Shown here in pieces: positions 19,041 through 48,737 of a stretch of 64,000 nt of DNA. The translations under genes and the position numbers were made by a program. Origin of the DNA: Cerioporus squamosus (Eukaryota; Basidiomycota; Agaricomycetes; Polyporales; Polyporaceae). Positions within the stretch are counted from its first letter, which is position 1, and every line of letters starts with the position of its first letter. The notes beneath the pieces were generated by a model. It worked only from the letters and a program-made list of their open reading frames with translations, searched no databases and was not told the DNA's origin. Location: positions 1 through 64,000 of the forward strand of contig JABYQS010000122.1 of NCBI GenBank assembly GCA_022592435.1, written 5' to 3'.

Positions 19041-19064
19041 CACTGCAAGCGCCGCCCCGTTGTG

Positions 19065-19648
19065 CAGGATGCGATAGCCTTGTTATAGTCGAGAGTGAAG
19101 GTAACCTATAACAAAAGGTTTGACGGTCTATAACATGGTGCGATAGGTAAGCTATCGCCCCACAATAACCAGCTTATCGACCCGGGTCCTAGGTTACCTT
19201 TAGCCTGACTATGACACGGAGGTATAGTGGCTTTGAAGGTAGCCTTGAAACCGGTGTTATAGGCGTGCGGTAGCATGCCTAGAACACGATGTGATAGATA
19301 ACCTATCGCACGCAAATCGCACGCTTATAGCCCCCCTGGATACAAAAAGGTGTTGTCTGGCTATTGACTGCCTATAACACTACTATCGACCCACTCCATA
19401 GACCCATTATAGGGTTCTGATAGGCGTGTTGTAGGTAACCTACAACACCGGACTATAGTGACGGTGTACGCTTGCTATAATAAATTCATGGATAGGCTAT
19501 AACACCGTGTTATACTTAGATTGTCGCACGGGTCAATAGGCGGTCTATTGTCGGGCGATGGCTTACCTATCGCACCATGTTATAGACCGTCAAAACTTTT
19601 GTTATAGGTTACCTTCACTCTCGACTATAACAAGGCTATCGCATCCTG
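19065..19648 (+). repeat. 584 bp palindromic (MITE-like) block in the left TIR
   Basis: Begins CAGGATGCGATAGCC and ends with the reverse complement, GGCTATCGCATCCTG; the terminal arms are about 90 bp. The interior is full of TATAAC, CTATCGC and GGTTACC words and is AT-richer than its surroundings. The copy at 48130-48713 is the same length, with very few differences seen (for example g/a near 19142), and is in the same orientation. Confidence 0.85.
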
Positions 19649-19984
19649 GAACCCAGTGGGCATCGATCATTTCTCTCCCCCGCCGAGCCGTCACTTATCT
19701 TCGATTGAAGTCCTGCCTGGGGTCCTGAATAAGTGTCCAAGAGCTCATCTGATGGACTGACTCTACAGCGAGTCGGTCAACTCTGCATTAGAGCAGGTCC
19801 GCCGACAACAGTAGCCAACCCACTACCGCAGATAGCACGTCTGCACTGCTCAAGTCAGGACAGAATGACCCGAATACGACACTGAGCAACAGCAGCTTGA
19901 AACAACACCGCTTTACGACACTGAGCGACCCCGGCTCGAAACGACATCGACGTTCTGCTCAAGGCCACGACGAAAGGCTCGACA

Positions 19985-20315
19985 CCGCGCTGCACGACCT
20001 CAGCTCGAAACCACACCGCTCGGCACGATGCCGCAGAGGAAGACTCGACACCGCACCGAGCAGCGATGCGACGCGCCGGACGGCTCGACGCAGTGACGCT
20101 GCACGACCTCAGCTCGAAACCACACCGCTCAGCACGATGCTGCAGAGGAAGACTCGACACCGCACCGAGCAGCGATGCGACGCGCCGGACGGCTCGACGC
20201 AGTGACGCTGCACGACCTCAGCTCGAAACCACACCGCTCGGCACGATGCCGCAGAGGAAGACTCGACACCGCACCGAGCAGCGATGTGACGCGCCGGACG
20301 GCTCGACACGGCGCA
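19985..20315 (+). repeat. 109 bp tandem array, three units (left TIR)
   Basis: The word CACGACCTCAGCTCGAAACC recurs near 19994, 20102 and 20211; measured period 109 bp (GACGCTGCACG at 20095 and 20204). Sub-terminal repeats of CACTA elements are known binding sites for element proteins; that function here is inferred. ORFs through the array are not genes. Confidence 0.9.
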
Positions 20316-20470
20316 GAGCTGCATCGCACGACGCGAGACGGATACCACTCGGGCTCGACACCACTTAGAAAGACACTGCGCAAACCCAAGTCTCAAATCT
20401 CTGCTCGAGTTTGACGCCAACCAGGATCGAACATGGGAAACCGCTTCAATGTTCAATGCCCTCTCTGATT

Positions 20471-23400
20471 CTATCGTAGAAAATCATGTCTGTCGGATGT
20501 GTTATGATGAGCTTCCCAAATGGCACTGAAAGCTTCACACACCCTGTCCAGCGACCGCACCACGATGCATTCCGCACCAATATCCGAAGGTGTATAGACC
20601 ATGGAGGCGAAGTGAGCTTGAATGTCTTGTAGCGCGAGGACTTGCGGATCCGGCTTGAAGCGGTTGTAGAACAGGCGGGTGTCGAGGTCGTCAATTTGTC
20701 GATACGGATCGAGAGCTGCATGTGCATCGGATAGATCCATATACTCGTCGACGATGAAGAACGGCTCAACAATCTTCTTGTCGTTCTCCACGCGAAGATG
20801 TGTGAATACCTCCCGGATCTGGCCTGCTCGCAGAAATGCCGCTCCGCCCTCCGAATCAGGCTGGTTGAACAATATGAATGAATTGCGCAGTTGCGCACTC
20901 TTGGTCCCAAACTTGAGTCCCCCGTGGTCGAAGCTCCGCTGGTAGTTCACGGCGTCTGGGAGTCCGGGACGCCGGTCGGTCAAATCGAAGATGGACGAGA
21001 AGGCAGAGTTGCCCAGTTTGGTGAGACACGCCAGAAGTGCCCGATAGATGGGTCGAGGAAGGGGGAGCGCGTCTTCCTCAGAGAACACAAGAGGTTCCGG
21101 TTGCTCCGGGACCGGTCGGAAGCTGGACATACGAGGGTTACTGCGCGCTGCGTCGCGGAAGGACTTCTTGTAGTTTTCCATCATTGCCGCAAAGTAATCA
21201 TTCTCGGGCCATTGAGTGGTAGCCATGAGCCATCGTAGATTAGCGCCGATGTAGAAGTAGCGCATGAATGTGAGCGGCATGTCGTCTGTTATGCACTGTC
21301 AACAACAACGAAGGAGAGTGGTGGTTCTGCACGCACTGGTTCGACTGTTCGTATTCAGGTGCTGCAAGATCCCATTGAAACGCTCGAATGGGAATGCCCA
21401 CCATGCGTGTACCGGGCCGAAGAGCTCGAGGCATTCCCTCAAGTGGAGGGACAGATGATGATTGGGAACGAGAGGGTGCTTGAAAGTTTCGGTGAGGGAA
21501 GAGAGGTAGCGATGCATGTACGAATCAAACTTCTCCACACGTTCGTGATCCATAGTTCGCCGCGTCACGAGATCCACAGCGCGCACAAGATCCAGGAAGT
21601 TGTTGAGCAGGGTCTTCTGCCTTGGAGTTGCGGTCGAGGTACCCCATACTCTGACAAGGGTGATTACCAGGTTCACGAGGCACGCAGTCCGCCATTGGTC
21701 CGCCTTTAGCTTCCCATGGGACGGGCTGCCAAAGTTCTTCGGTGCGCGCTGCATCCAGGAAGGTAAGATCGTGTTCAAGATGTCTGCCCGTATGGAGGCC
21801 AGGGTATCTTGGTCCAGGATGCGGAACTTCGAGATGTCGAACTCGTCATCGACGAGGTGGAAATCGCGCGTGGATTCTTGGAACACCGGAGGTAGGCGGA
21901 TATCGACATCTTTGTTTGCCCTCCACTAGAAGTGGCGGTTAAAGTATGGCAGGATATGAAGCAAGAGCGAGACGTACCCATTTGAGAAGCTCCTCGATGT
22001 AGTCGCGTTTGGTGAATCCGCCGAACGGAGGGACTGCACCGTTCAGCTGTGCAACCGCCGCGAGATAGCCCTTCCGTACACGGTTCAGCTTGTTGAAGTT
22101 CTCCTGCTTGAGGTACGACACGACGTTCTTGAGCCAGGATAACTGTTCGTCGGGTGAGTGGGGCGTTACCTTCTGGGTATCCTTGGATTTGTCCTTGATG
22201 TCGACACCCCAGAAGTCGCGGCAGTGATGGCGCAACTCTCCAAGGAACAAGTTGTGCATCGCGTCGACCAAGGCGAAGCGAGTCGGATCCCAATACGGCA
22301 AGCGGAGCAACTCGGACCAGCGAATCCCGTGTTTCTTGAAGCAGTCGTCCCGCTCCTTCTCCCTCTCAGCATCCTTCCACTCGTCCGCGTAGGCCTGATG
22401 CTTCGCACGGGATCTCCGAGGCCACTTCGAGCGCCTGAGGTCGCTGATGCGCTCCTTCGGAAGCTGACAGAAGGAGCAAAAGTACTTATTGGAAGAATGA
22501 CCGGCAAAGCCAGCCGCCTTGCGCAAGGCGGGCAGATCGCAGACAAGGGGGATCATGGCGGCACGGACCACCAGCGACGCACCATCGAGTGCGGAGGACG
22601 ATAAGAAGATGCCGCGTTGCCACAAAATGAGGAGTTCGTCAACAAGAGGGCGAAGGAAATGGTTGAGCTGATGGAGCCCGGGTTCGTGTGGGCCGGGGAT
22701 GATACCTGCCAGGTAGATATTCTCGGGGCGATAGCGGATATCTGGTGGGAGATTCAAACAAACGAGGTAGATCCCGCCCACTGAGTGCATCTTGCCGGCC
22801 TTCTTATTGCCATACGGGTTGAACCAGTCTATGAAAAGCGAGAATACGAGATGTACCGAACCGTCGGGTTGAGCGGAGAATGGTGTGCGTCCATCTGGTC
22901 CGAGGAAGTTACGCAGAAGGGGGGCGTGCCATATATCCGACCACCGGGATCGTTGTGAGTTTTGGGGTGTCCACGCCTCACGGGCAAGTTCCGCGAGCAT
23001 GGGTCTCTGGAAGAGTTCCGCAAGCCAAGCGTGCATAGAGCGGTATGGGAAGAAGCGGATGGGCTCGTACTTCACGTAGACCTGTTTCCCCTCGCGTATC
23101 TCCTGTCGCCTCACGAGTGTTTCGCCGCAAACCCCCTTGTCAGTCTCGCGGAAAGTGCAGCGATGGGGATAGGGATCTCTGGGCTTCTTGGGATCGGGCG
23201 CATAGGTCGCGCGACAGGCCGGACAAACCGCGTACCGTATGATGGCGGGTTCCAAGTCGAGTTTCTTCAGTATCGCACGAATGTCCGATGGGATGGCCTT
23301 TAGCATGTCGTTCTGTGCATCCGTAAGCGATGGCCTCCTCCCAAGCGAACTGTTCAACCACATAAAAGCGCCGAAGAGTATGGCCTTGACGCCTGTGAGA

Positions 23401-24501
23401 ACGAAGGCAACATCGACCTGTGCCGCTTCAGCCAAAGCGTGCATCACGGTGACAAGAAGTAGTGTAGCCAAGATGAAATGCTCCGTCGTCTTCGCTCGCT
23501 CGCCGGGCTGGATGCCTGTAAGGATTCAGTTCATATGTTGAAGTCATCTCGTACATGGGCGAGACCTACCGATCGGAACACTTTTCGGGCCCGTCTCCAG
23601 GCTCGTCGACTCGAGGTAGCGAACCAACAGATACTCCGTCCATGCATCGTCCCTCAGCCGGTCGAGGTTTTGCAGATAGGAGTCCGCTCTCTCGATGAGG
23701 CCATCGAGGCGACGATCGAGATCTGTGTCACCGACAGCGTTGAGCTGGGTTAGATACTTGTATTGCTCGAGGATCTTGCCGCGAACACCTCGATACAAGC
23801 TGTTTTGCTGTCCGTCACCTTGAGGTTCTTGCGGAGGATCAGATAGCTTGGTTGTTGGAGAGACAGAAGAGAAGTCCAAGCTGAGCTGAGCCGGTATCAG
23901 CTTTCGGTGCGCGCTCAGAGAAGATTCGACTGTGGCCAAGAATTGTCGCCGCTGGCGGAGTTCATGCTAACAGGTACGACAACGGGAATAAGTATAAGGC
24001 AGCGAAGAGGACAGCAGAGAATAGAGCTCTTACCTTTCCAGCAGTCGGTGCTGCTGTGGTAGTAGTAGGCGGATCAGAGGCAATGTCGGTAGCAGAAATC
24101 GGGGGGATGTCGGCTGCGTGCAGCGTCTGACGGCTTGTTAGGGGTTGTGTTCGAAGTGAATGAATCTCGTCAATCTATCGACATACCGATTCATGTCGTT
24201 CAGTAGATGCAGGCTGTCTAGATGCGCGACGATGGGCCTTCTTATCCTTCGGGCGGACGGGAAGAGACGGAGAGGAACCACTGGAGGACGCCACGGTGGC
24301 GACGAGGATACTGCTTTCCAAGACCTGCTGTAGATCTTCGTCATTCTTGACATGCTTCTGCACGGTCCTGGCGGTGTTGAAGAGTCGGCCCTGGTGCTCT
24401 ATGCCATCCTGATCCGTCCATACACGGCTGTTGCATTGGCTACAGGTGCAAAGGTATTTTCCCTTTGGCACCGGTACCAAGGACGATGGTTGGTCAGCCA
24501 T
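20471..24501 (-). CDS. Tnp2-like CACTA/EnSpm transposase
   Basis: Six exons join in frame to 1248 aa: 24501-24187, 24126-24034, 23966-23570, 23515-21978, 21925-21337, 21285-20471. The N-terminus has CTCSQCNSRVW, a zinc-ribbon-like start. Exon 4 has a second Cys cluster (CPACRATY...CTF...CGETL) and the core signatures YWDPTRFALVDAMHNLFLG and ELRHHCRDFWG near 22230-22300. Exon 5 has GPVHAWWAFPFERFNGIL, the typical Tnp2 block. A C-terminal CIVVRSLDRV segment closes it. No stop or frameshift was seen, so the element may be active or recently active. It cuts and pastes the element by binding the terminal repeats. The family call is strong; the boundary with the next gene is clear. Confidence 0.92.
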
Positions 24502-24793
24502 CGGACCGAGACAGAGCCTTGAAACGAGTAGCGAGAGACCTGGGCAGTGGGATCGAGGCGGGGAGGTGAGATGGGGAGAGAGATGAGGATACAGGGAGCT
24601 GCGGGAAGCGCGTCGCCAAGAAGCAGTCAGCGCGAAACAAGGACTGGGTGCGGACTCACCAAAATCGGAGCTTCTGCATTGCGTGATCTTCAGATCTGAT
24701 CAAGACCGGACGAACGGACGGATCATCAAGCCGCTTCAAGCGCATATATTGTGAGCTAGAATGGAAACCGAAAGATTTACTGCCACGGGGACA

Positions 24794-26654
24794 TCATAAC
24801 TCTCTATGCCGCACGCGCATAGCCTCTTCCCAGACCGGATGCTCCCCAAGAATCAGGTCACCTTGCGGTTGACCAGACATTGACTGGAGATATTCCAGCA
24901 TGCAGAGCAGGATAGCCATGGCGAGGATGTCGAGACCTTGTCCATGCTTCCGATAGATGTATCGCACGCGTGCCTGCCATTGCTGACGGGAAGCAGGTAG
25001 CTCCAGAAGGGAACAATAAGATCAGCAAAAGATAGCGGCCATCACAGCGGGGAGAAATACTCTACCTTGTACTCGTGAACTGGGGCCGTAGTGCGTTTAT
25101 TCGGTGTTGTCTTGTCTGTTGCTAAATTGGGATCAAGGGGAGGGACCGCTCGAAACTACAGTGTATGGTTACGAAGATCCCGACATCGCAACCAGGATAA
25201 ATACTCACAATATTGTTGACTAGGACCGTCACGGCGGTAAGGCACAAGAAGCCGGCCTTTGTCATGAACTCGGGTGGGAACGCCACCCAGGGCAGGTTCG
25301 TGGGGTAAGAAGTATAAGGGGAACCTCGGGATGGCTCCGAACTCGTACTCGGCTCGACAAGGGCTCCCGGGGCATCGGAGTCAACGACATGGCCAGACTC
25401 CCCAACGTCTGTCAATTGGGGAGGCATGGAAGAGGGTGTAATATCCAGATGTTCCGAATGAGCGGGCTCGCTCGAAGACACCGGAACGAAGCCCGGGTCT
25501 GCACAGTCAACCTACACCGGCGAAGTCAGGAATGTTCTCGAGCCACAAGAGATGCATGCATACCGCTACGCCCGAGGAATCCGATGCATATGGCTCCCAA
25601 GAGGTGTCGCCCAACTCGTCGGCCAGCGAAGGAGCGAGGTCTGAGTGACTGCTGCCTGATGACGGATCGTCAGAGCGAGATGGATCGGTTAGGTGCACAT
25701 CTGAGCGGTAGCTTGACGAAGGTTGGGATGTAGAGGGATAATCTATCAAAGTCGGTAGAAGAGACTGAATGTCATCACCAGCTTCGGGCGGATCCAGGAA
25801 TTGCAGACACGGAGACGTGCTGCGCGGGCGAGTGTGCTCATCCTGTGTAATTTCAAGTGCAGCCGCGAGTTCTTTCGCACCGTCTGCCTGAAGTTGAGTA
25901 ATGGCCTCCTCGGTCTTCTGCGCCCACCGGCCGAGACTAGATAACACCAATGTCAGCGAAGCCACATCCGCCTTGCTGTTCGCTGCTTGAGCCTTCAGGA
26001 CATTGCTGTCCAACTCCATCTTCTTGATTCGGGACTGCAAATCTTCCAAGCTATCTTGGCATTTGGTTTGGAAGTTCTCTAGAGCGCGGCGTTCAACGTT
26101 GAGGTTTCCTGTAGACGCATCCTCAGACATGCCACTCAGAACAAAGGAGACGGTGAACTTGCCTTGGGCCTGACGATAGGACAGCTTCACCGGTTGCATC
26201 TTGGTGTCGCAATTTTTCCGAATAGATACCAACTCGTCCTCGATATGCGTCAGGCGTTTCTCGAAAGCATTCTAGTGGGCATGGTTATTTTTGTTTTCAG
26301 GCCACAACAGAGCTTGCAATAGCTTTACCTGCGTGCGTCGAATAGACAGAACAGCTCTGTAGAGGTCCGCGTTGCTAGAGTTCAGGCTTTCCAACTGTTT
26401 GCGAGCCTCTGAATATTCTGCATCCCACCGCGCCCCATCATCATCGTTCTTCGGACGCTCCCTGTAGCGACAGTGAATGCTGTCGAAGCAAATTGAAGGT
26501 GGCGCACTTACCCGATGAATTTGAACACCTCCAGCGATATATCATACGGCAACGGCACAGAGAGCGAACCAATCTCGCGTGATTGAGAAGTGTCTTCCAT
26601 CTCGTCGACTTGCCTGCAGTCAACATGGTGCTCTTGATGAGGGAGAGAAGACAT
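24794..26654 (-). CDS. Coiled-coil protein with hydrophobic C-terminal helices
   Basis: Start at 26654 (MSSLPHQEHH). Exons follow in frame through FKFIG, then ERPKNDDDGARWDAEYSEA, then NAFEKRLTHIEDELVSI. A long coiled coil (FQTKCQDSLEDLQSRIKKM and onward) is followed by a Ser/Asp-rich linker, then a hydrophobic stretch FLCLTAVTVLVNNI (near 25210-25260) and a last exon with LDILAMAILLCMLEYLQS, ending HREL at 24794. The two hydrophobic helices suggest membrane association or an amphipathic hairpin. No family is recognised. It lies directly upstream of the transposase, same strand, where CACTA elements often carry a second protein; whether it plays such a role is unknown. Confidence 0.65.
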
Positions 26655-26915: not shown

Positions 26916-28135
26916 TTATGAGCTATCTATACAACGGTTGAGCAGACGACACAGTGGCGCGAAGACGAGTGAGAGCTTACCTTCGGCATTGAGGCGCACG
27001 AACCAGTGCTGGCGGATCCAAGAGGGGTTCTTCCTCTTTCTCGTCAGGGATAGCAGCCTGCCGTCAGATCTCCGGTAACCAACGTAGATTGGCATCCAAC
27101 GGGGCCCTCGACCGTCTGGAACCCAGATCCAAAGTTGAGACTTCCTGCTGTCTAGCGTATCGCGGCGGTAAAAGACATCGCCGAGTAAACACTTCTCTTT
27201 GACGAAGTGAGGGGGTTCCGGAATTGCAACTGCGCTCCTGATCTCGAACCAGGCCGTCACAACAGTGTGGGTTGGATCGAGGCTGTCGGGCCGGTTGCCT
27301 GTCTTCCTGGCCAGGAACTTCCCCCAGACGCTTCAACCAACACGACGAATGTCCATGACTGCATGTCACTCACCATTTGCGTCCGCACCGAAGACGACCG
27401 GCCTCGGGAATTGCTGGGACCTGGTGCGTCGTTCTCTTCCTCCTCCGAGCCCTCCAGCTCCACCCCCTCCTCCTCGGTCTGTTCGTCGTGTTCGACGTCA
27501 GAGGATATATCAGTAAGAGGTGAAGGGGGAGCGGATCCGAGATCGTCGCAGCGGCTACTTCCATCTTCAGCGCCACTCATGGCATCCGACCCCGCCGGTA
27601 AAGGAGCAACATGAGTATGGTCGATGGAAGGCACACACTGAGCGGGAGAGCATGGTGTGATCACCAGAGGCGTGACCCGCCTTGAGCGGGAGCGTTGCCG
27701 AACTGCCCCGGGACTCAAGGACCTTGCCGTGGCAGAACTTTGCGCACGCGACGATTGAGGGTCGTCACGGTACTCGCCACTACTGGATACCAGCGAGGCG
27801 CAGTTGTCTGACGCTTCCGACTTGACGTCCAGAGCAGGGCTGGCGGTGGCTTCCTCAGCGGGAATCTGCAATATGCCAGTGGCCACCACTCACCTGCGTA
27901 GGCGCACAGGTGCAAATTTCCTCGCGATGGTTGGCTGCGCGTCATTGTGGAAGTCTGGAGGTCGTGGAACAAGCATCTCCAGGTTCGTCGTGCGGTGTGC
28001 AGTGACAGTTGTGGTAGCCGAGAAGACGAAGGCAAGTGTGCGCGAACGCATTCGCCTCCGAGTGCAGGACCGCAGTGCAAAGAAGACACATAAGAGTACC
28101 GTGAACGCGGCGATCGTGAATGCAGCCAGCTGCAT
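26916..28135 (-). CDS. Unknown protein X: N-terminal TM, low-complexity linker, beta-rich domain
   Basis: Likely start at 28135 with a hydrophobic segment (LAAFTIAAFTVLLCVFFAL). A Ser/Glu-rich, Arg-rich linker follows (27380-27880), then a C-terminal globular domain containing TAWFEIRS, LLGDVFYRRD, WMPIYVGYRRSDGRLLSL and NPSWIRQHW. The same ordered motifs occur in the neighbouring gene at 28708-29986, so the two are paralogs. Exon joins near 27880 and 27370 were not fully resolved; one candidate intron (about 28 bp) is suspiciously short. Function unknown. Confidence 0.6.
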
Positions 28136-28707: not shown

Positions 28708-29986
28708 TCAGGACCCACGAGCTATTGCGGCACAACGGCGCAGGTTGGCCAAGTATTGGCCCTCCTGCACCCAACTGGGCTCTTGCTCTCTCGGCGTAAT
28801 GCTGAGCCTGTAGCCGTCAGCACGGCGGTAGCCAGTCTTGACAGGCCACCACCCAAAGCGGCCATCTACCCCAACCACGCGCAGGAAGAGTTGAGGGTCG
28901 GGGTCGCCATTCATGGTATGCATGAATACATCACCCAGTGTGGGGTTCTCTAGCGATGACGACGCTGGTGGCGCACTGATGCGGCTCTCTCCCTTGGTGC
29001 TGAACCAAGCCATCATGACTACTTGGCCGCGGCTCTTGCGGCTCTTGGTCTGACGCTTAATCAAATCGTTGACCTAGCGAAATTCTTTAGGCTTGAACTT
29101 CTGCGATAACAGTGATACTTGTGCATACCTGCATGGCCACGTCGCTATCGTCTGTCTGGACGAGGTCGATTGGGACTGACGACGCCTCCGGAGATGACGC
29201 AACGGAACGATCCGACGAAGAAAGGGATGAGGAAGACGACGAACGACGAGGAGACGTTCTAGTTTGTGACCGTCCAGGACCCGGCGCCGGCGCGATGGAT
29301 TGAGAGCGAGCACGAGAGGTAGACTTGATGCTGGGAGGCGTGCATTGCCTTGACTCTTGAGCTCTACCTTTGCCTTTGCCGGTGGCGGACGTTGCAGCAA
29401 CGGGCGTGGACGGTCCAGCAATTTGTTCCCGGCTTGCAGCAGCCTGGCCGTCTGCGAAGGATGGGGAGCCAACAGGTGTGGTAGATCGAGGAGGGATTGC
29501 AGAGGTTGCGGAGGGGAGCCGGACCGCCCGGACACGAGCTTGTTTCTGTCCCGTAGGGGGCGGCGTAAGGGGAAGGGGGTCGTCAACAGGCTTGGGAGTT
29601 GCGGCAGCGACGGCGATAGTACGGGAACGAGGAGCCTTGGAGGGATTTGCTTGCACAACACTGTCACTGGCAGTAGCAGTGGCATTGATAGCCCTGGGGA
29701 AATATCAGCCACAGTCGGATACAGCATGCTGCTTGAGGACGCACTTCCTCACTCCACCAACGCGACTCGGCTCGCGGTGACCCGATCGCGACCGAGGTCG
29801 TTGCGCGAGAGGAATAGCGACCTGCTCTTCCTGACGTCCACGTGCGTCCGCCCCTGGCACCACAGCATGTCCGGCACGCCGCTCTTCGTCCAGGAGCTCC
29901 GCCCGAAGGAGTCGAGCATAGAGATAACCTGCTAGCAGCAGAGAGAAAAAGGCGACAAGAGTGGTCAGATCAATGTTGACCTCCAT
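28708..29986 (-). CDS. Unknown protein Y: paralog of X with N-terminal TM
   Basis: Start at 29986 with a hydrophobic helix (LTTLVAFFSLLLAGYLYARLL) followed by an Arg/Glu-rich segment. A Ser/Pro/Arg-rich linker spans 29120-29660. The C-terminal domain has MAWFSTKG, TLGDVFMHTMNGD, WWPVKTGYRRADGYRLSI and EPSWVQEGQY, aligning in order with gene X. The shared pattern is AWF-LGDVF-W.P...GYRR.DG..LS-PSW. A cytosolic or nucleoplasmic globular domain tethered to a membrane is the likely layout. No known family is recognised. Introns lie near 29705-29755 and 29065-29130, borders approximate. Confidence 0.6.
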
Positions 29987-31545: not shown

Positions 31546-31770
31546 GAGGTGCCGCGCACATCTTGATTTTCCCTTGAGGTCGGTATAGCGAGTGCGGATA
31601 GAGCGGCGGTGGAAGAAGACTGGGACGGGCGGGAGGGACGGGCGAGAGGGGAGAGATGAGGGTATGTTGATCTGCCCGCACCCTGACCCTATAGACGCAT
31701 CAGAAGTGTAGAGCAGCGACAATGGTTAACAACGTACTGCAATAACCGTGGCGCGCCTGAATGACATGGT
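31285..31770. repeat. Local direct duplication (unit about 230-250 bp) in the 5' part of P1
   Basis: Two imperfect direct copies share GTCGGTA(A/T)AGCGAG(G/T)GCGGATA and, further on, GAGCAGC(T/G)AC(G/A)AT with TGCA(G/A)T(G/A)ACCG. The duplication covers the low-complexity 5' part of P1 and confuses its start. Confidence 0.6.
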
Positions 31771-32092
31771 TGGGGGTGCGGCGACGTAGGAGGACATCTT
31801 TGAAGGATTCCGAGGAGATGGGGGATGGTTGTAGTTCGAAACAACCATGGGCGCTCGTTGTAATTCGAGACAACCCCGGGCGCTCGGCCTCTGATGTCCG
31901 AGTGGGAAGTCAACCTGTCACGCGTCACATCTGCACTGCCATTGGACTCGGCAGGGCGAACGAACATCTTCCGATTCCAGATCGACTTGTATCAACATGA
32001 GAATTCAAACCCGTATACGTAAGTTCCGCGAGGTAAGTAGTGTGGTATACAACGCGGCATGCGGCGATGACAAGGTACCGTACAGCGTGCGT

Positions 32093-36216: not shown

Positions 36217-37680
36217 CTATACTCCGCGCGCCCTGGAAGACGCACACGGGATACCGGCTTCCTGCCACAGCGCTCGGTGTGTGAAATGGACAAGGAAGTG
36301 CCGTTGCCCGCTGAGCCATTCCGGTACACTGTGGAGAAGATCATGACCACGGAAGAAGACAACGTCACCGGGACGTAGCAAGAGCTTGAGCCTCAGTTGG
36401 GGGAACTCGAAGTAAGCCCCATCGAAGTCCCCGACGTAAGCGATGCAAGCCCAGGACATCGGGGGATCCTGCTTGTCCCAGTGGAGCGGTGACCAGCGGT
36501 TGAAGATTATTTCCCGACCTTCCCAAAGCATCTTCTTGTCGAGTGCTGCAAAGGCCCTCTGGGAAGCATAGTTGCTGAGTCGATAACTGTACACCTTGTG
36601 GAGCAAGCCGTATTGCAGAGGATCGATGCAAAGCAATGTCCGCATGCAGTACGCGTTGACAATCTCGAGGCGCTCCAGAAGGTCCATGGCGGCTTCAAAA
36701 GACTCTCCGGTCTTACGAATGTCCGCACACACGACTGGTGCTGAGTTCTGGGCTTCAGGTGAGTTTGTGTATGGCGTAACAATGGGAAGACGGAAGTACG
36801 TACCCGACGACCAATGGCGTGCCATAGGAGCGCAATACGAGTGCGACCACTGATAGCATACTCCTGTTTGTATGAGTTGCCGAAGTCGTTCTTGCCGTTG
36901 GTTTGGCGAGGTGCCATGGCGCCCCAATCCAGCATGGCCTTTTCTAAGTCCTTCTACACAGCGGTCAACACTAAGGCCAGAGAGGGAGAAGGTGCGACAC
37001 GTACCAGTGTTTTTCCACGAAATGCCTGCGGGAAGCGATAAACTAAGTCGTACTGGTCATTGCTGACTGCACGCTCAGGACAATCTGCAGCGAATAACGT
37101 CCATGGGCCTTCGGGCTGTGGAACCCGGTCAGGATTTCCACGCTTGCCGTGCACAGCCTGCTCGAGACTGAAGTCGAACATATCTGGGGCGAACCAGTAA
37201 GGCAGCAGACATTCGCGGTGTGATAGGAGACTCACGAGTGTTCTCGGGCAGCTGGGCCTTTGCGACGTTCTTCCGGGCATGCTTCTCAGTTCCCCAGACA
37301 ATTTCGCGTAACTGCTTCTCTCGTGTCATTCTCTCCCAGCGGGAGCTTGTCCTAGGACGGGGTGAGTGTGTCACTGACATCTAGTCCAGAACGTGCTCAC
37401 TTCTCGATGTCTATGTCCCTAACGCGGAGACCCAGCACCTTGAGCACAAACGGTAGGACGCGCAGGAACATGTAACTTACAAGTCCACATCTTCATCGCG
37501 GACGTCTTCGAGGTTGCTGAAGCTATCCACGCCGTCAGCGGCAGAAGATGCGTTCTGAGCGACACGCGGAGGGCTCAGGATGCCTCGCCGCTTGGCATCA
37601 AATAGATAGCGCTCCGCTTGCGCGTATGCCTCCTGTTCCTTGCCTAACCAATCCAACGGAGCAGCGCCCTGTCCGCCCAC
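36217..37680 (-). CDS. TET/JBP-type 2-oxoglutarate/Fe(II) dioxygenase
   Basis: TET/JBP enzymes oxidise 5-methylcytosine (or thymine in JBP) in DNA; fungal members act on 5mC. The last four exons join in frame: 37351-37236, 37183-37005, 36953-36804, 36747-36217. The catalytic double-stranded beta-helix is in the last exon. The iron-binding HxD is read in SPLHWDKQD (His codon 36481-36483, Asp 36475-36477); the distal His in RGHDLLHSVPEW (36331-36333); and the 2-oxoglutarate-binding Arg in SGQRHFLVHFTH (36301-36303). The FEFPQL...LRPGDVV spacing fits fungal TET-like proteins. An upstream exon (37680-37477) and perhaps more, to about 38660, encode an N-terminal extension. All metal and co-substrate residues are present, so activity is plausible. 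Confidence 0.85.
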
Positions 37681-37889
37681 CAGCTTTGAGGTATGCGTGA
37701 TCAGCGAGCGGATTCAAATAAGACGAGGATGAATACATACCAAGATGGGAGCGTCTCCGGGCGTGGGCGTTTCCTTAGGGTGGACTAGTGGGGGCGGGCC
37801 GACTACTAGTGAGAGCGGGTTGGGTAGCGAAGGCCGATCAAGTAGCGAGGGCGGGTCCGCTGCTTGAAGCTTGAGGACGATCGCAAGAC

Positions 37890-38235
37890 CATGCACGGAA
37901 AATAGGCCCACCTTGTTTTGCCTTGTTCCCTACAATTTTCGCCTTGTCGCGTCGCTCGTGACGACCTTTGTCAGACAGGATTTCGGGCACAGAGGCAGTG
38001 GGTCGTGGGCGCAGAACTGTATTGTTGAAGAGGTATCGAGTACACGGGTGAAAGCAGTGCATATAGCGCGGACGTACCTCGGTCAGTTCCGCTGCGCTGC
38101 TGGTGACTTTTGTCGCATGCGATGCCGGGGATGGAGGGGGTGGGACGTGGACGCAGAACTGACATTAGATTTGAGTAGTTGGTACAAGGCCTGCACGAAG
38201 CGCATAGCACGAACGTACCGCGGTCGGCGCCCATG
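37890..38235. repeat. Imperfect tandem duplication upstream of the TET/JBP exons
   Basis: On the minus strand two stretches translate to related peptides: VLRPRPTPSIPGIACDKS (about 38150-38095) and VLRPRPTASVPEILSDKG (about 38015-37965), each followed by an Arg-rich run and preceded by a Cys-Thr-containing PCT(N/R)Y. This may be a duplicated exon of the TET/JBP N-terminal region. Confidence 0.55.
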
Positions 38236-39549: not shown

Positions 39550-40506
39550 ATGTCGCAGTGGACTTTACGGTACGGCATACTCTTATTTACTAGGCCAAGC
39601 TTTACCGATGCCCGCAGTTGTTCCATTCAATTTGTGGATGTGATCGCGTGTGGGTCTCCCACCGAACACTTTGCGCGTATTGGTGCTCGTCTATTGCTCA
39701 CCTGTGATGGATCGTCTGGTGAGTTCTGAGGGTCTCTCTCGCATGCGCGGCTCTCCCAACTTTGCGCCACTCCCACCTGCATTAGCATTCCTATGTGTCA
39801 CCGGGGATGCACGTGACGATGTGGTTGCATTCGACTTCAACAACTTGATGACACACACCCATATCAGCCGGCCGGTGAGCGCGAACGCTATTCGGATTCT
39901 GTGCTTTCGTCTCATCCACATTTCTCCGCAGTCACCTCACGTTGTAACCTTTCGCTGCGGTCAGCCTATGCTGTGTTTCATCTTCGCCGGCGCAGAAGTG
40001 GCCGAGGCGTTTGTACAGATCACGCAGGCTTCGCGGCGCTCATGCGGTATGTCCGACCGGCCTCCCTCTCTGCAGCACCTGCAAATTCTGGGCATCTTCG
40101 GAGAAGACGATATCACCTCGTCGTACGCGCATGCCCTCGTCAACGAAAAACCGCTGTGGATCTGTCATTACCTCTCACGCGGTGAGGAGGACGGTGATAC
40201 AGATATCCCTGGTGCCTCCGGCGCCTCGACTCTTTTCGAGCGAGTCTCTACTCCGAGTGAGTCAACTCTATTCGACCGCGTCTCCGCTCGGGTGACTCCG
40301 ACTCGGATTCGGCCTCGATGTGGATTTCGGACATAGGAAGCTCATCTGAAGAGTCCCAAGGGGAATCTTCCTTGGAAATCATGGATGGTTGGGTAGATGA
40401 CGGCCAGTCGTTGGAGGAGGCGAGTTATGACATTAACCCGGAACCGGACACTTACTATGACGCTGTGGAGTGCCCGGAATGTATGTGGTTCCAGCTGGAA
40501 GCCTAA
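39550..40506 (+). CDS. Hypothetical protein, five to six exons
   Basis: Start at 39550 (MSQWTLR), intron to 39618, then CSIQFVDVIACGSPTEHF, intron (GTGAGT...TTAG, 39719-39787), AFLCVTGDARDDVVAFDF, intron 39873-39931, SPHVVTFRCGQPMLCFIFAG, further coding to TLFERVSTP, and a last intron (40258-40336) before an acidic Ser/Glu-rich tail ending CMWFQLEA. The protein is about 260 aa. The N-terminal two thirds look like a compact beta-rich domain with repeated hydrophobic strands (LLLTCDG, FLCVTGD, MLCFIFAG). It is not recognised. It lies between the TET/JBP and WD40 genes, plus strand. Confidence 0.6.
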
Positions 40507-40851: not shown

Positions 40852-42385
40852 TTACATCAGAACTCCGGGCTTGTCTGTAAGTACGGGACGCATCACTGCA
40901 ACTCCGCCACCAATGATAGCGGCAACGATGACCGGAAGTACAAGGAACTGAAATGCTCCGGTTACATACGTGTAAGGGCAGGAGATAAAGACATACCAAA
41001 GGAACACCGCAGAGACAGCGCCACGGCCGGCGTGGTGAGTCCGTTCCTGCACACAGCCGTGTAAGAGGAAGGGCAAAGTGCACGCATAGAGGTACTTACG
41101 AGCCATCCAGATTACCACTGCAGATTTTCCTTCGGAGTCGTTCCCGCCAGCGGCCAGCAGAAATTGATCGAACTCGGCATTATAATTTGCCTAGACGTCA
41201 GTGTCAGCCAATACCGTACTTTGTTTCTTTGGCTTCACGCACTGTGATCGCCAATATCGTGTCGTATGCTACAGAAAGCATTCGGATCAAGGGTACAATA
41301 CCGCAGAAGATAATCTGAGCTTACGTGTAGGGGAAAAGGTTTGATGAACTCGTTTATTGTGAACGTTCCACAGAGTAGCGCGGCCAATTGTGGTCCCACC
41401 AAAGAGTGCCCGACCACCGTGTACAAGGAGTACCGGGATGGTGCGCGTCCCATCGGACACGTCAGGGAATGACGAGATGCAGTCACCGGTGTCCAGATCG
41501 TAGAGGTCAAAGCCAGCGCCCATAATCGACAACGCTATAGTGGAACCTATGGGGGACATGCTCGAACCACCGCTGAGAGTGTGTTGATGTGAGCACGACA
41601 GGGGCGACTAGGTCCAGATAGTACTCACATGTCGCTGAGAGGAATCACCTTGATCCGGTGCCAATTGGACGAGTTATAGAGGCTGCTTGGCATAAGCTAT
41701 GGTTCTATAGAGAGCACACGTTGGCGTCCGGCACTTACATGATGCCATGGTGCATGTACGTGATTGCTACGACGGAGTGGTGAACCCTCGTTTTCGTCCA
41801 ATGGATTCCCATCACGATGAAGTCCTCGTCGGCGTTCTTGGAGTCCGTAGACGGACCGTTCAAGTCTGTAACATGTTTCCATTCGCCTATTGAGAGCGTA
41901 TATGTTCAGTAGGTCAGTGCGAACTTGCGAACGAGACGTACCGTGGCTGAGGAGCTTCCAAACACTGACTTTGGGATGGGCCCCGGAAACGAGTCGCTTG
42001 TCTTTTGCAGCAAGACGTTCCACAGGGTATTGGTGTGCCCAAAATCCCGTTGCCTTGGAGATGTCCTGCAAGCTACGTTAGCCGGAAGTCCACGAGATCG
42101 CTATGTACCTACGGCATCAAATCTGAGCATGGCAATGTATCCATCACTCGATCCGCACAGGATGGTATCCTCGCGCTCGGGAAGCCATTCGAGAGAGAGA
42201 AACGGATAACGGCTTCCACTGTAAGTGTGCAGCAGTTTGCTGTCAGCGACGCGCCATACGTACACCTTCTGGTCCTGCATCCCAGCAGTGGCGATGTACG
42301 TTCCTAAGGGACTGAACGCCACTACAGAAACACCTCCGTGAAGACCACGCTGCAGCCTACAGACTTCTTCGTATCTCAGGGACAT
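40852..42385 (-). CDS. WD40-repeat protein with C-terminal transmembrane helix
   Basis: Start at 42385 (MSLRYEEVCRL). WD40-type blades are visible: GVSVVAFSPLGTYIATAG with VYVWRVAD, FLSLEWLPEREDTILCGSSD, KRLVSGAHPKVSVWKLL, FIVMGIHW, MSPIGSTIALSIMGAG and RALFGGTTIGRATLWNV. Further exons lead to FLLAAGGNDSEGKSAVVIWMAR and then a hydrophobic segment (LVLPVIVAAIIGGGVAVM) just before the C-terminus DKPGVLM (40852). At least seven exons; borders approximate. A tail-anchored beta-propeller is the likely layout. It starts 264 bp from the divergent SUN-domain gene, so the two share a promoter region. Confidence 0.7.
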
Positions 42386-42648
42386 CGTCAGGAGGATGGG
42401 CGAATGAAGTCAAGGAAGGAGGATATGGTACTGACGCGCCAATCGCTGATTCCATTTCAAAATTCAGAACAAGAGAACAAAGCGGAGCTAGGCGCCAGCA
42501 TTGGGGCGGACCCTCGCGGACCGCGGCCGACGCTCGCGGCGGGCGCTCGAGCTCGCTGCCGCCGACCTTCTGCCACCACCATCCGAGCCACTCACCCTTC
42601 CCAGCCCACTTCTGCCCGCATACATTTCGATCTCTCTTTTATCCTAGC

Positions 42649-43756
42649 ATGCTCTTCCGCAGGCCGGAAAAACAAGCAAATTCTTCGGACCCCTTCGAGG
42701 ACAGATTTGTGTATGAGACAACGCCAACCTTGCCACCGAGTACGTCTACCCCCTCTTATTCAACCGTCCTTGCCTGACATTGGGATAGAGAAGACGAGGC
42801 GGCCTCACACGCGTTCTGTTGAGGATGCTCCACCAAGCGGCGATCCGTTCTCCTCCGGACCTGAAGTGTACCGAGCTCCTGCCCGACGAAGAACCTCTGG
42901 CAGGTCATGGTTCGGCCGTGTGGCGTGGCTGATTGGAGTGCTCATGGCGGCTACAGTCGTTGCAGTCTTTGGTTTGGGCAATGCTACCTCACGGGATCTC
43001 AGCGTGGACACGGACCTCCCCCCAGGGCCGGTGGTCTCGTTATCTCAGGAGCCTCCATCGCCGGCGGACACAATCATCCCCCAACTTGAAGCCTATGTCC
43101 AGCACGTCGTCTCCGCTGCTCTGCGCGATACCGTCGGCAGAAGAGACTTCGCGCTCTTCCAGGACGGCGCCGCAGTAATCCCGAAGCTCACCTATCCCCC
43201 ACCCCCAACCCGGCAGCCTAGAGCATCTGCCCCAGCTTCAGCTCCAGCATTGGACGGGCGTGGCGAACCGGAGGCCGCATTGGACGAAGACCTCCATGTG
43301 GGTTCCTGCTGGCTGATCAGCGGTACCTCCGGGCAACTCGGCGTCGGTTTGCACGCATTTGTCTCTCCGACTCATGTGACTGTCGATCACACCCCGCTTG
43401 AAATCGCAGCTGATATTGGGCGAGCTCCTCGCAGAATGATCTTGTGGGGCTTGGTTGAAGGGGAACAGAACATAGCCCTCTATCGCGACCTGCAGGCCCG
43501 CGGTGAGCGTCTGCACGCCGCAGCACCGGGACGTGAAGCCCCCGCCCGAGACGGAAACCAGCTCTTCGTGACCCTCGCGAGCTTCGATTACAATGTTTTC
43601 GCGCCATCTCACGTTCAAACCTTCCCTATCAGCTCGGTTGCCGTCGAAGAAGGGCTCTACTTTGGGGTGGTAGTGTTAGAGATCCTGGATAACTGGGGCG
43701 GCGAGAGTACGTGCCTTTATCGCCTCCGTGTACATGGCAATAGAGTTGTGGTGTAA
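42649..43756 (+). CDS. SUN-domain protein (nuclear envelope type)
   Basis: SUN proteins sit in the inner nuclear membrane and bind KASH proteins to link chromatin to the cytoskeleton. Exons 42649-42739 and 42789-43756 join in frame to 352 aa (start MLFRRPEKQ). A short basic N-terminus (nucleoplasmic in the family) is followed by one TM helix (AWLIGVLMAATVVAVFGLG), a short spacer with a possible helix (LEAYVQHVVSAAL), and a C-terminal SUN-like domain: VGSCWLISGTSGQLGV, VSPTHVTVDHTPLEIA, APRRMILWGLVEG, FVTLASFDYNVFAPSHVQTF, EGLYFGVVVLEILDNWGG and TCLYRLRVHG. These blocks match the family order closely. It is divergent from the WD40-TM gene and lies within the giant element. Confidence 0.85.
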
Positions 43757-44042: not shown

Positions 44043-47000
44043 ATGAGCCACTTCGCCACTTCGTCTCAGCCACCAGCACCTCCCTCTTCCGCACCCAAGG
44101 GGCTCTTTGCTGAAGTAATTGCAGGACCATTTGAAACGGTCAGCGTTCTGAACGGCGCGAAGCGACCTCCGGGAGGCCCATCGATCCACGATTCAGTCCA
44201 CAACACGAAGCAAAGCCGCGGAGCGTCAAGCCACTCCGAATGGGTCCTTACTTCAAGGTAGGCTGCTATCCGGCGAGGATTGCAGGATCATCTTGCTCAC
44301 CATCTGCGTAGAATGGTGTGAGAGAGGATGCCGATGTGCGCCGTGAGCGACTCGCAGCGGCCGATGCAGCGTCCTCCGCCTCTTCTTCTACAGATGGCCG
44401 GCCGACCAGGAAGAAGAAGCCCTCGAGCTCAACCTCTAGGCCGAGTACCCGTGCCTCTACGCGCATCGCGGGCTCTACCATATCTGAAGCGGGCGCAAGT
44501 TCCCATGCCACTCATTCTGCTACGGTCCCTGATCAAGCTGCCTCGTCTGATCCTGCTGCTCTTCAGCCGGTTTCCATCCCCCAACTTCCCCAGCCTATGA
44601 CCACTCCTGAGCACGTTGCGGTTCCCGAGCCCGTCGCAGTTCCCGAGCCTGTCGCAGTTCCCGAGCTCGTTGTGATTCCTCGTTCTGTCCCGGATCCTCA
44701 GCCTTCCCCCGCTTCTCAGCCTTCCATGGCTCAGCCCGCACCTACTACTGGCACTCAACTTCAGCATTCGGTGCCGCTAGCGGTTACGTTTCCCATCAGT
44801 GCCCAACCTTCGGCCTCCCACCATGTCCCTTTGCATCTCGTCCAGCCCATGCAACTTCCCCGTGCGCTGATGGACTACATCCGTGGGCTGTACTTGGAGC
44901 ATCAAGGGAAACTTCTGACTGACAAAGGTGTGAGGATGGTGTGGACGAACCTCGATGACGGGCGGCGCATACACATCGTAGAACTCTATGGGAAATGCAC
45001 CGCAGAAGCGCATGTGCGAGCCAGCGATGACGCTTTTGAGGCCAAGCTCAAGGCCAACCTGTCCAAGGGCTCCATCCCCTCGCAAGCGAGCCCCGAGAAC
45101 AACCCGGAATCCCGACCGGCTCCAACTGATACAGCCACCTTCTGCCGAAGCCGTACAATTCGTCAGCAGGCAAAACTCTGCTGCGGGATCTGCATTCTCG
45201 CAAGCTTCACGGTCCATCAATGCCTCTCAGTCCGCTCGGTCCGGTTCGTTGATCAGCGCGGAGGGGACGGAGCGCACTCTGGACTCAGAAGAAGACATGG
45301 ACATGGTACGCCCATTCCAAGCATCACGACGCCTCATCGTCCCGGGCCCTAACCGGTTATATCCTCCTCAGGCCTACACATTCGACGAAGACAATGGCCT
45401 CCTCGTAGCGGCGGAGAAAGGCAAAGTAAGCATGCGTACATCGTCCCGGCCTCCGCACTACTGATGTCTGTGCAGGGTCGAGCTGTGGATATGGACATGG
45501 CGGACGTAGACGAATCAATTGACGCTGATGACGAAGCTGAAATTATGGACTACGATGTCAATGACCGCAGCGGCCTTGCCACTCCGACTCCGCGGCCAGC
45601 TCAAGTGCGTTCCTTGTCTTCGCTAGTTCTCGGCTTGCTCATCAATTTCTACGACTAGGTCCCTGGAGACGGCTCTTCGGGCAAATTCAACGCCGCGTTG
45701 GACCCAGAGCTCATGCTCGTGTTCGTACGCAAAGTAGACGGATTGAGCAAGACTGTTCGCGACCAGGCTGAGTTCCTCAGGGAATTGACCGAAGGCAACC
45801 GTGCTTTCCAGTACGCCAGTCGCTACTGAAGGTGTTCGTTATATTGATCTTCCAACAGGACACTTGTGTTGGAAGAGCTGCGGTCGTTGCGTGCAGCGCG
45901 CGGAACCACTCAGTCCAAAACTCCTCCCCAAGCCTTGCCGCGTGCCGCGGCTGCTATCCAGAAGGTTATGGAGCGCTCTGCCAAAGCTCGCGGACAGGAG
46001 CTCACTCTTACACCGGAGGCGATTGAGAAGGTACACAGGACCCGCCAAATGGTCCGTACATCCTATGTTTGTTCATGTGCTTCTCATGCAGTAAGCTAAC
46101 ACCGTAGTAGTCAAGGATACACGGACATATGCGTACGCTTCTGCAGATGACCGACTCCACCGACCTCGTCGTCCTTCACCCTACGCTCACCGAAACGCAG
46201 GCAGCCGCATACAAGGCTGGAGACAAGACTTTCGCTTGCACCCCAGAGAGCTTCCACGTAGATTTCATTCGCGGATGGAAGACATTCTCGTTGAACAAGC
46301 ACGCTAGGCTCGTTCTCATCCGGTCATTTCAGAAGAAGGCACAAGGTGGCGCTTTCGCCATGAACCCCCCACCAAAGAAGATGTTAACCGATGAGTTCCT
46401 CGGGGGACTCATTGATCAGTACATGATCAGTCTCCGACGGGCCTATCGCGGCGCGCTGAACCCGAAGACGGAAGCACAGCAGCTAGAGATCAGACGGCGC
46501 GCAGCAAGGAACGCTCGGATGGGCACGGTGAATATCATTGTGATTGCTTTCCAGAGGGGCGCATGCTGACGAAGCTTGACAGTTGTACAAATCTCGTCTT
46601 TTTGTTGTGGTCCACATGGGGTATGGCCAGCACTCGATCCTCTTCAGTCGGATGGTGGCCTGCAACATGAGCGGCGACGAGACCGACGGTGACGAAGTCA
46701 AACATCCTCCGACCTACCGCATCATCATCGCCGAATGGCAGAGCTTGGAGTTACGGGTCTTCCTGTGGGCTTTGGACGCGAAGTACATTGCTCACTGGGA
46801 GAAGCCTCCTAAGCACCGACGCACCGGAGGAAACCCGGCACGAGTGCGCGACGTGCGCGACGAGAGCAAAACGCTCCCCGGGATTGCCCCGTGCCGTCTG
46901 TGGCGGAACTGCTACAATCCGGAGTGGCTCGAGAAGTTAGAAGACTGGGAGATCGAGCTCTTGGAAATTGTGGACGAGGACTACGACTTCACCTTGGACT

Positions 47001-47080
47001 CCCCTTCCGCTACCGCTACCGCTCCGGGGCAAGCTTCCAGCCAGAAGGGCGCGACAAAGGCAGGGTCATCTCGTCACTAG
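44043..47080 (+). CDS. Large transposon-type hypothetical protein
   Basis: Exon 1 44043-44257 (MSHFATSSQ), then a Ser/Pro-rich exon with repeated VAVPEPVAVPEP, and a block LPRALMDYIRGLYLEHQGKL. Later exons (from about 45470) are acidic, then a Glu/Leu-rich part (LVLEELRSLRAARG), then a compact C-terminal domain: MRTLLQMTDSTDLVVLHPTL, AMNPPPKKMLTDEFLGGLID, YRIIIAEWQSLELRVFLWAL, APCRLWRNCYNPEWLEKLED. The two good coding frames around 45120-45170 are offset by one base with no GT...AG pair between them, so this copy has a frameshift or a base error. Similar multi-exon ORFs are common companions of transposases in Agaricomycetes; a role as second CACTA protein is a guess. It lies next to the right TIR. 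Confidence 0.65.
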
Positions 47081-47508
47081 ATTCATCGCTGGTTCATTGG
47101 TATGCTGTTCCATCTGATTCATGTACAGTACTTCACAACTCCCTAGTTCTCATCGTCAATCCATTCCCTATGTGCAAAGCAGATCGGTCACCATCATCTG
47201 CCGTGCTTTTCTGCACGGCTCTATTTGTGACTGGTGCGGGGGCTTACCCTGTAGTCCTTCGGTGTCGTGCCGCGTTGCTCGGCGCGGTGTCTACTCTTCC
47301 GACCCGTCCCGCGCTACGCGCCGTTGCTCAGTGCGTTGCAGTCCGGCGTCGTACGGTGTTGCTCTGTGCGGTGTTGTGCAGAGGGCGTTGTCAGCGGAGT
47401 CGTGAGCTGGGGTCATCAGCATAACGGAGAGAGCACCGTGTTGACCTGTCCGGTGTGTCGCATCGCTGCTCCGTGCCACGTCGAGTCTTCCACTATGGCA
47501 TCGTGCCG

Positions 47509-48737
47509 AGTGTCTCTCTAAGTCGTGTCGAGCCCGAGTGGTATCCGTCCCGCATCGTGCGGTGCGGCTCTGCGCCGTGTCGAGCCGTCCGGCGCGTCAC
47601 ATCGCTGCTCGGTGCGGTGTCGAGTCTTCCTCTGCGGCATCGTGCCGAGCGGTGTGGTTTCGAGCTGCGGTCGTGCAGCGTTGCGTCGAGCCGGACGTCC
47701 GGCGTGTCGCATCGCTGCTCGGTGCGGTGTCAAGTCTTCCTCTGCGGCATCGTGCCGAGCGGTGTGGTTTCGAGCTGAGGTCGTGCAGCGCGGTGTCGAG
47801 CCTTTCGTCGTGGCCTTGAGCAGAACGTCGATGTCGTTTCGAGCCGGGGTTGCTCAGTGTCGTAAAGCGGTGTTGTTTCAAGCTGCTGTTGCTCAGTGTC
47901 GTATTCGGGTCATTCTGTCCTGACTTGAGCAGTGCAGACGTGCTATCTGCGGTAGTGGGTTGGCTACTGTTGTCGGCGGACCCGCTCTAATGCAGAGTTG
48001 ACCGACTCGCTGTAGAGTCAGTCCATCAGATGAGCTCTTGGACACTTATTCAGGACCCCAGGCAGGACTTCAATCGAAGATAAGTGACGGCTAGGCGGGG
48101 GAGATAAATGATGGATGCCCACTGGGTTCCAGGATGCGATAGCCTTGTTATAGTCGAGAGTGAAGGTAACCTATAACAAAAGGTTTGACGGTCTATAACA
48201 TGGTGCAATAGGTAAGCTATCGCCCCACAATAACCAGCTTATCGACCCGGGTCCTAGGTTACCTTTAGCCTGACTATGACACGGAGGTATAGTGGCTTTG
48301 AAGGTAGCCTTGAAACCGGTGTTATAGGCGTGCGGTAGCATGCCTAGAACACGATGTGATAGATAACCTATCGCACGCAAATCGCACGCTTATAGCCCCC
48401 CTGGATACAAAAAGGTGTTGTCTGGCTATTGACTGCCTATAACACTACTATCGACCCACTCCATAGACCCATTATAGGGTTCTGATAGGCGTGTTGTAGG
48501 TAACCTACAACACCGGACTATAGTGACGGTGTACGCTTGCTATAATAAATTCATGGATAGGCTATAACACCGTGTTATACTTAGATTGTCGCACGGGTCA
48601 ATAGGCGGTCTATTGTCGGGCGATGGCTTACCTATCGCACCATGTTATAGACCGTCAAAACTTTTGTTATAGGTTACCTTCACTCTCGACTATAACAAGG
48701 CTATCGCATGCTGCAGAACGGGGCCGCGCTTGCAGTG
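47509..48737 (-). repeat. Right terminal inverted repeat (1229 bp)
   Basis: Reverse complement of 19041-20377 except for one fewer 109 bp array unit (copies near 47645-47680 and 47755-47790) and scattered substitutions. The palindromic block inside it is, however, not inverted. A further stretch with array-like words continues inward to about 47250. Confidence 0.9.
48130..48713 (+). repeat. 584 bp palindromic (MITE-like) block in the right TIR
   Basis: Same length and same (direct) orientation as the block at 19065-19648, while all sequence on both sides of it is inverted relative to the left end. Differences seen: a/g near 48207, and a g/c change in the last arm (CGCATGCTG instead of CGCATCCTG). 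Confidence 0.85.

Follow-up and report, generated by a model that had tools for sequence, protein, structure and literature searches.

Introduction

The closest described relatives of the locus considered here are the EnSpm/CACTA transposons, of which maize En/Spm and the soybean element Tgmt* have CACT-type tips, 3-bp target site duplications (TSDs), a tnp2 transposase gene, arrays of subterminal motifs and a second, putative DNA-binding protein (for the two-protein scheme of En/Spm see PMC2613891, which also gives Tgmt* a length of 20.5 kb and terminal inverted repeats, or TIRs, of 13 bp). Our subject is a 29.7-kb stretch, positions 19041-48737 of a window that comprises positions 1-64,000 of contig C27 in genome assembly G000 (54 Mb, 988 contigs), the assembly in which all genome searches were made. 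An earlier note had described this stretch as a giant CACTA-type element with long, complex TIRs and a full set of cargo genes. With a probability of roughly 0.85, we read its interior and ends as one copy of a cut-and-paste transposon of EnSpm/CACTA type, whose family, in a polypore-like basidiomycete, consists of giant elements of 27-30 kb; this reading takes in the cargo, its roles and the origin of the two flanks from two loci. This family shares with maize En/Spm and Tgmt* all the features listed above, the TSDs being those of the relatives of the window copy, and differs from them in its length of 27-30 kb, in a conserved cargo of SUN, WD40 and DLFF genes (DLFF is our own name for a novel domain) and in a subterminal block that is repeated in direct orientation.

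Large size and a TET gene both have precedents. The enlarged En/Spm elements of Chondrus crispus reach 16-20 kb with 4-5 open reading frames (ORFs) and are smaller than the family described here, and the passage on them in PMC6431247 names no SUN or TET gene. The TRC elements of animals and fungi, also of the CACTA superfamily, carry Transposase_21 beyond plants, with a match in Phanerochaete (PMC1636069); the example in that paper is about 5 kb long, and fungal ends are not characterised there. In the account of Kojima (2025, PMC12730594), EnSpm elements with a TET gene (TET+ EnSpm) are described in fungi from Puccinia and Agaricus bisporus, while for Polyporales the only TET+ elements are Kyakuja. 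These TET+ EnSpm resemble our elements in their CAC..GTG termini, in 3-bp TSDs like those of the relatives of the window copy and, where the window copy itself is concerned, in the presence of an EnSpm transposase gene and a TET/JBP-type gene. However, the same account puts the EnSpm of Agaricomycetes in the PE type (HxE), whereas the window protein has HxD, and neither "SUN domain" nor "Sad1" appears in its main text.

Results

Just inside the left end, where the earlier note had placed it, lies a Tnp2/EnSpm-type DDE transposase gene (20446-24501, minus strand; exons 21942-23525, 21302-21925 and 20474-21298; likely start codon at 24501). Its ORF 21942-23525 matches Transposase_21/tnp2 (PF02992) at E = 7.3e-19, and the exon 21302-21925 matches DUF4218 at 2.2e-5, under the curated cut-off. 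Like all gene models in this paper, it is the output of a custom splice finder and is approximate. The motifs SLFIDWF, LVCDLPA, CSFC, HHLSLH and FPFERF follow each other in this order and correspond to D, D, C2C, H(4)H and E, as in the EnSpm scheme of PMC12730594, which puts C2C and H..H between the second D and E. Homologues at E ≤ 1e-50 made up 188 of the 7996 scored candidates, and Tnp2 relatives extend to other orders and to Puccinia; the window genome itself holds 56 matches to the catalytic exon, some of them several pieces of one gene.

Plavaka, KDZ, Starships and Teratorn are comparable as large eukaryotic elements or as TET-bearing fungal ones. The hallmark of Starships is a tyrosine recombinase captain gene. 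Among the element proteins scanned, which are a subset of the ORFs, no recombinase, tyrosine recombinases included, and no virus-type protein was matched in Pfam. We rejected membership in Plavaka and KDZ because the only Pfam match of the transposase is PF02992 and, in the case of Plavaka, because the tips are CACTG, those of PlavakaA/B being TGT..ACA or CATCA..TGATG according to PMC12730594.

The element begins with the tip CACTGCAAGC at 19041 and ends with the tip GCTTGCAGTG at 48737, exactly as first proposed. Within the window the 12-base CACTGCAAGCGC has only two exact matches, both of them element tips; with up to two mismatches there are 10, against 8.4 expected by chance. The CAC..GTG form of EnSpm/CACTA tips is seen both here (CACTGCAAGC) and in the two complete relatives on contigs C13 and C212 (CACGGCAGGC); strict CACTA is absent, and CACTG and CACGG tips occur across the family. 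The inverted repeats of 1229-1337 bp reported earlier are real insofar as the ends are long and inverted, but they do not form a simple TIR. Inverted arms of 554 nt (97%), 178 nt (95%) and 145 nt (92%), 27.1-29.4 kb apart, join the two ends, and the end repeat is a mosaic in which the outermost 145 bp are inverted, 19185-19528 is direct and 19529-20382 is inverted again, this inner part corresponding to 47504-48249 and including tandem units of about 109 bp. A 584-bp block (19065-19648 and 48130-48713) stands in direct orientation at 99.66% identity, each copy being palindrome-armed, that is, flanked by its own 120-bp inverted arms. The left end extends over 19041-20382 (plus strand; 109-bp tandem units at 19988-20307) and the right end over 47504-48737 (minus strand; 110-bp tandem units at 47586-47802). 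All 18 sites of the motif CTATAACA in the window, on either strand, fall inside the two outer 608-bp ends, nine in the block of each end, a clustering that resembles the subterminal arrays of CACTA elements. A free miniature inverted-repeat transposable element (MITE) of 633 bp on contig C340 (L011, 7477-8109) is built from the terminal block of the element, complete with both tips, and has a TSD of TGC; it is about 82% like each window end.

The two complete relatives, C13:406932-434210 (27,279 bp) and C212:65000-92258 (27,259 bp), have identical 14-base tips at their boundaries and are flanked by 3-bp TSDs, CAC at C13 and TGA at C212. Their flanks do not match each other, and C212 collinearly covers 86.8% of C13. 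The cargo order of the copies can thus be compared, as the earlier note had suggested: C13 and C212 are collinear with each other and share ordered genes with the window, the common order being transposase, DLFF genes (not one to one), WD40, SUN and TNPA-like. Because of these TSDs, unrelated flanks and collinear cargo, and because of the purifying selection described below, we conclude that such units move and that the cargo belongs to the element, which bears out the earlier view that the interior genes travel as a unit. The assignment to EnSpm/CACTA, likewise upheld, follows from the transposase with its PF02992 match and ordered motifs, from the tips, from the TSDs of the relatives and from the subterminal arrays, which are made up of CTATAACA in the window and of CATTTCGG in C13 and C212, where 9 of 9 and 7 of 7 sites, respectively, lie in the outer 400 bp.

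The inverted ends of the relatives measure 64 bp (perfect) in C13 and about 113 bp (84%) in C212. Kilobase-long TIRs, one of the traits by which the window copy had been placed outside the usual form of CACTA elements, are therefore not general in the family; size alone has its precedent in the published elements of 16-20 kb. At both ends of each relative there is a subterminal block of 215-241 bp in direct orientation, 99.5% identical within C13 and 98.8% within C212, and the ends of C13 and those of C212 are about 83-87% alike. Such a direct block is common to the three elements compared, and some copying process may keep the two ends of one element alike. Four further contigs were considered: C874 has a partial copy, C340 the MITE, C568 an element that stops at the contig end, and C822 an element that could not be bounded, its ends being blurred by repeats that are partly retrotransposon-like by inspection. 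In the region of C212 there is also an inverted repeat of about 5.7 kb at 85-88% (local positions 10716-16449 in L020 and 54364-60000 in L024), one arm of which starts beyond the right end of the element, at a distance of about 100 bp.

The proteins of the collinear cargo are only about 30-64% identical between elements, and its key genes are under purifying selection. Between C13 and C212 the ratio of nonsynonymous to synonymous substitution (dN/dS) is 0.08, 0.17 and 0.21 for the transposase exons and 0.33 for a further ORF upstream, 0.16 for SUN, 0.13 and 0.12 for the TNPA-like gene, 0.12 and 0.19 for a predicted membrane protein, 0.16 for an ORF of the WD40 region, 0.27-0.35 for ORFs of the DLFF region and 0.33 for a long Gln-rich ORF. 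Moreover, the cargo genes cluster with Tnp2 throughout the genome. For this comparison 26 Tnp2 loci were kept, all of at least 184 bits, leaving out C92 (174.5 bits, internal stops), weaker matches and the second fragments of C922, C638 and C48; a second C211 fragment was left out of the TNPA-like list. With the window excluded, 5 of 15 SUN matches, 10 of 17 TNPA-like matches and 15 of 18 DLFF matches have a Tnp2 locus no more than 30 kb away, where at most 2.9% would be expected. The queries came from the window and the match lists are lower bounds, some TNPA-like and DLFF entries being close to the E-value limit. No conserved host arrangement of the cargo genes without element ends was seen in the DNA examined from this genome, in which ends were left unchecked at the pairs of SUN and DLFF genes on C241 and C257, two contigs with no Tnp2 match.

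In other species, relatives of the SUN protein number 33 at E ≤ 0.001 among 7998 scored proteins, the window's own included, and come from Lentinus, Polyporus, Fomes, Pilatotrama, Ganoderma, Trametes and Dichomitus. These genera are polypores (two species were checked). Relatives of the TNPA-like protein were 5 of 1719 candidates. In Lentinus tigrinus the records of the SUN (P0007; tag 470550) and TNPA-like (P0002; tag 470548) proteins both list a 282,889-bp contig, and in Ganoderma sinense a single gene model (P0072) holds SUN together with Transposase_21. Judged by these relatives, the host of the window element is probably a polypore as well.

About 8-10 genes can be named in the window element, not clearly the dozen that had been announced. 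Next to the transposase, from which it was split by hand, a predicted coiled-coil-like protein (24815-26600, minus strand) is 40% identical in amino acids to C568 and belongs to no Pfam family. Two copies of the DLFF domain follow (26919-27332 and 28711-29073, both minus strand), neither with a Pfam match; the domain is about 90 amino acids long, has the pattern PP..GD.F..W.W..G.RR.DG..L..T...PSW and keeps 12 invariant positions over nine copies, some of them partial. A predicted gene at 30574-33157 (minus strand), known as a gene model only, is without relatives in the fetched elements, and an ORF at 39707-40336 (plus strand) is 33% identical in amino acids to C568. The WD40-repeat gene (41335-42385, minus strand; likely start codon at 42385) is collinear in C13 and C212, a similarity that is partly generic: both are weakly matched, too, by a WD40 gene at 50720-52219, which is not part of the element. 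Beside it lies a predicted membrane protein with a SUN domain (42404-43753, plus strand; start codon approximate), matched by Sad1_UNC (PF07738) at E = 2.5e-18. The last gene before the right end (44312-47080, plus strand) encodes a low-complexity or coiled-coil stretch and then a conserved C-terminal domain, MSGDETD...WQS.EL, in which a Pfam scan gave no significant match; its position and the two-protein scheme of En/Spm suggest the label of putative TNPA-like gene. AlphaFold models of this C-terminus and of the DLFF domain have low confidence, with predicted local distance difference test (pLDDT) scores of 45.8 and 44.1.

The TET/JBP-type dioxygenase gene (36217-38062, minus strand) stands apart from this shared set. 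Its exon 36220-37056 matches Tet_JBP (PF12851, at 36274-36519) with E = 1.6e-7, slightly under the curated cut-off, and aligns to the solved CcTet (E = 4.9e-7) with HxD retained. Reading this alignment, we find Asp and Ala at the positions of Gly331 and Asp337 of CcTET (numbering of PMC12730594), so that activity of the predicted enzyme on 5-methylcytosine is doubtful. No credible match to the gene was found in C13, in C212 or in the available part of C568; relatives occur on C323, C412, C368 and C460, four contigs without a Tnp2 match. For these reasons we rejected TET as core cargo. The gene sits between the element ends, yet these ends may belong to two insertions. Also inside the element, at 35408-35822, is a 205-bp tandem duplication (93%) containing a 29-bp palindrome.

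The flanks of the window copy tell a more complicated story. On the left, C800 follows the flank at 99% identity as far as base 19040, beyond which it continues without the element; it is an empty allele and proves the left junction. C874 carries 19041-24603 at 99.7% and stops at exactly the same tip in different flanking DNA, which confirms the left end independently. (In C874, DNA without a window match, L009 1-3499, interrupts the element copy beside the transposase gene; it is hAT-transposase-like by inspection only.) On the right, the last three bases of the outward-read flank, at the tip, are AGA; the flanking DNA of C874 likewise opens with AGA next to the opposite tip, an agreement with a chance of 1 in 64. 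Furthermore, a gene piece in the right flank (54638-54889) is matched at E ≤ 0.001 by just one other place in the genome, C874:11408-11656, 2.3 kb from the element end in C874; a more distant relative of the piece lies in the window itself (53345-53623). One insertion, at what we call locus B, therefore seems to have the right flank on one side and C874 on the other, and pairing the right end of the window with C874 would give the TSD AGA/AGA. The left flank would then represent locus A, and the right flank a second, near-identical insertion, the two having been joined by assembly error or ectopic exchange. We conclude that C27 probably joins the halves of two near-identical insertions, and given the kilobase repeats an assembly error is likelier than a real exchange.

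A single undisturbed insertion is rejected, since the TSD is missing and the flanks look like parts of two loci. One could still suppose a single true insertion at locus A that lost its TSD and gained its odd right flank through a later deletion or rearrangement by the right end. Such a history would agree with an empty allele in which the match to the left flank reaches the very tip, and with a right flank that has no second copy in the assembly; the AGA shared with C874 and the unique match of the gene piece speak against it, and we consider it unlikely.

Several features of the surroundings may be recorded here. Outer inverted matches at 83-88% (71-130 with 58277-58336, and 1517-1611 with 56604-56698) and tandem repeats with a 73-bp period (812-1215 and 57094-57730) lie on both sides of the element and are perhaps the ends of another repeated element. 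A large predicted protein of about 1560 amino acids (2145-8038, plus strand) looks transposase-derived by inspection, with no Pfam match in its first 964 residues, and near the left end there is an ordinary Tos1-type cell wall protein gene (16350-17627, minus strand).

Discussion

Our analysis indicates that the window holds a copy of a giant CACTA transposon whose cargo is its own. Several observations weigh against this. The triplets that flank the window copy differ (GCA on the left, TCT on the right), so that this copy has no 3-bp TSD. The right junction predicted for locus A was not found, the search giving 18 matches, all with two mismatches, against 29 for a reversed-pattern control; nor does the C800 DNA beyond the junction have another full copy in the genome. 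The whole elements compared number three (the window, C13 and C212). While 26 of the 50 ORF pairs between C13 and C212 have dN/dS ≤ 0.5, the other 24 lie at 0.59-3.05, which we attribute to fast regions and to ORFs read in the wrong frame across real genes. Of the 16 SUN matches, the window now included, 10 are farther than 30 kb from Tnp2; five of these, with an identity of only 29-30%, could be host genes, and of the other five those on C257 and C241 have DLFF nearby, that on C588 has a TNPA-like gene nearby and those on C357 and C591 have neither. Finally, the roles that we assign to the TNPA-like, SUN, DLFF and WD40 proteins are guesses.

Could the TET/JBP, SUN and other genes simply be passengers, caught by chance and of no use to the element? 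The CACTA elements of plants are known to capture genes, as PMC8978399 reports, and the TET/JBP gene was indeed not found in C13 and C212. However, this view is countered by the collinear conservation of genes whose proteins have diverged to the identities seen here and by the dN/dS values of 0.12-0.19 for the SUN, TNPA-like and predicted membrane proteins since the split of C13 and C212, and we regard a purely passive cargo as quite improbable. The notion that two small MITE-like elements flank unrelated host genes by accident, or in a composite-like arrangement, draws on the 584-bp block being almost a copy of the free C340 MITE with its own tips and TSD, on the direct orientation of the outer blocks and on the missing TSD of the window copy, but it is largely refuted by C13 and C212, in which the gene order is retained within quite different ends and TSDs are present, as well as by the inverted similarity that runs inward past the block to 20382 and 47504 and by the genome-wide clustering of the cargo with Tnp2, so that we reject it as very improbable and, with it, the idea that the ends belong to two separate small elements.

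How might such a giant CACTA element work? We infer that the transposase cuts at the tips. The TNPA-like gene with its conserved C-terminus, or alternatively the coiled-coil gene, would take the part of TNPA by attaching to the subterminal arrays and drawing the distant ends together. The TET/JBP-type enzyme might strip the base methylation that silences the element, and the SUN membrane protein could form an accessory module with the WD40 and DLFF proteins, possibly a tether that holds the element, or the complex that transposes it, to the nuclear envelope. A more speculative extension, to which we give rather low odds, is that the giant CACTA lineage is a near-autonomous parasite with a nuclear-envelope tether of its own. 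In this case the SUN protein and the DLFF and membrane proteins would fix the element, or the complex that transposes it, to the inner nuclear membrane, in the service of synapsis between ends 27-30 kb apart or of biased passage between the paired nuclei of a dikaryon, and the subfamily would be kept from silencing by a TET-like enzyme whose substrate pocket is altered.

More generally, since published CACTA elements already reach 16-20 kb, what is new here is less the size than the conserved cargo block, SUN protein included, in units of 27-30 kb, together with the direct subterminal block. In the open-licence literature, at the level of titles and the beginnings of abstracts, we found no transposon described with a SUN-domain protein, and nothing else that resembled this combination of features. 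The extra genes of this CACTA element are not loose captures: they form a collinear block, the main genes of which are selected and have been kept across diverged subfamilies. Should the SUN and TET genes be of service to the element, it would become testable how large cut-and-paste transposons join their distant ends, take up position in the nucleus and evade methylation.

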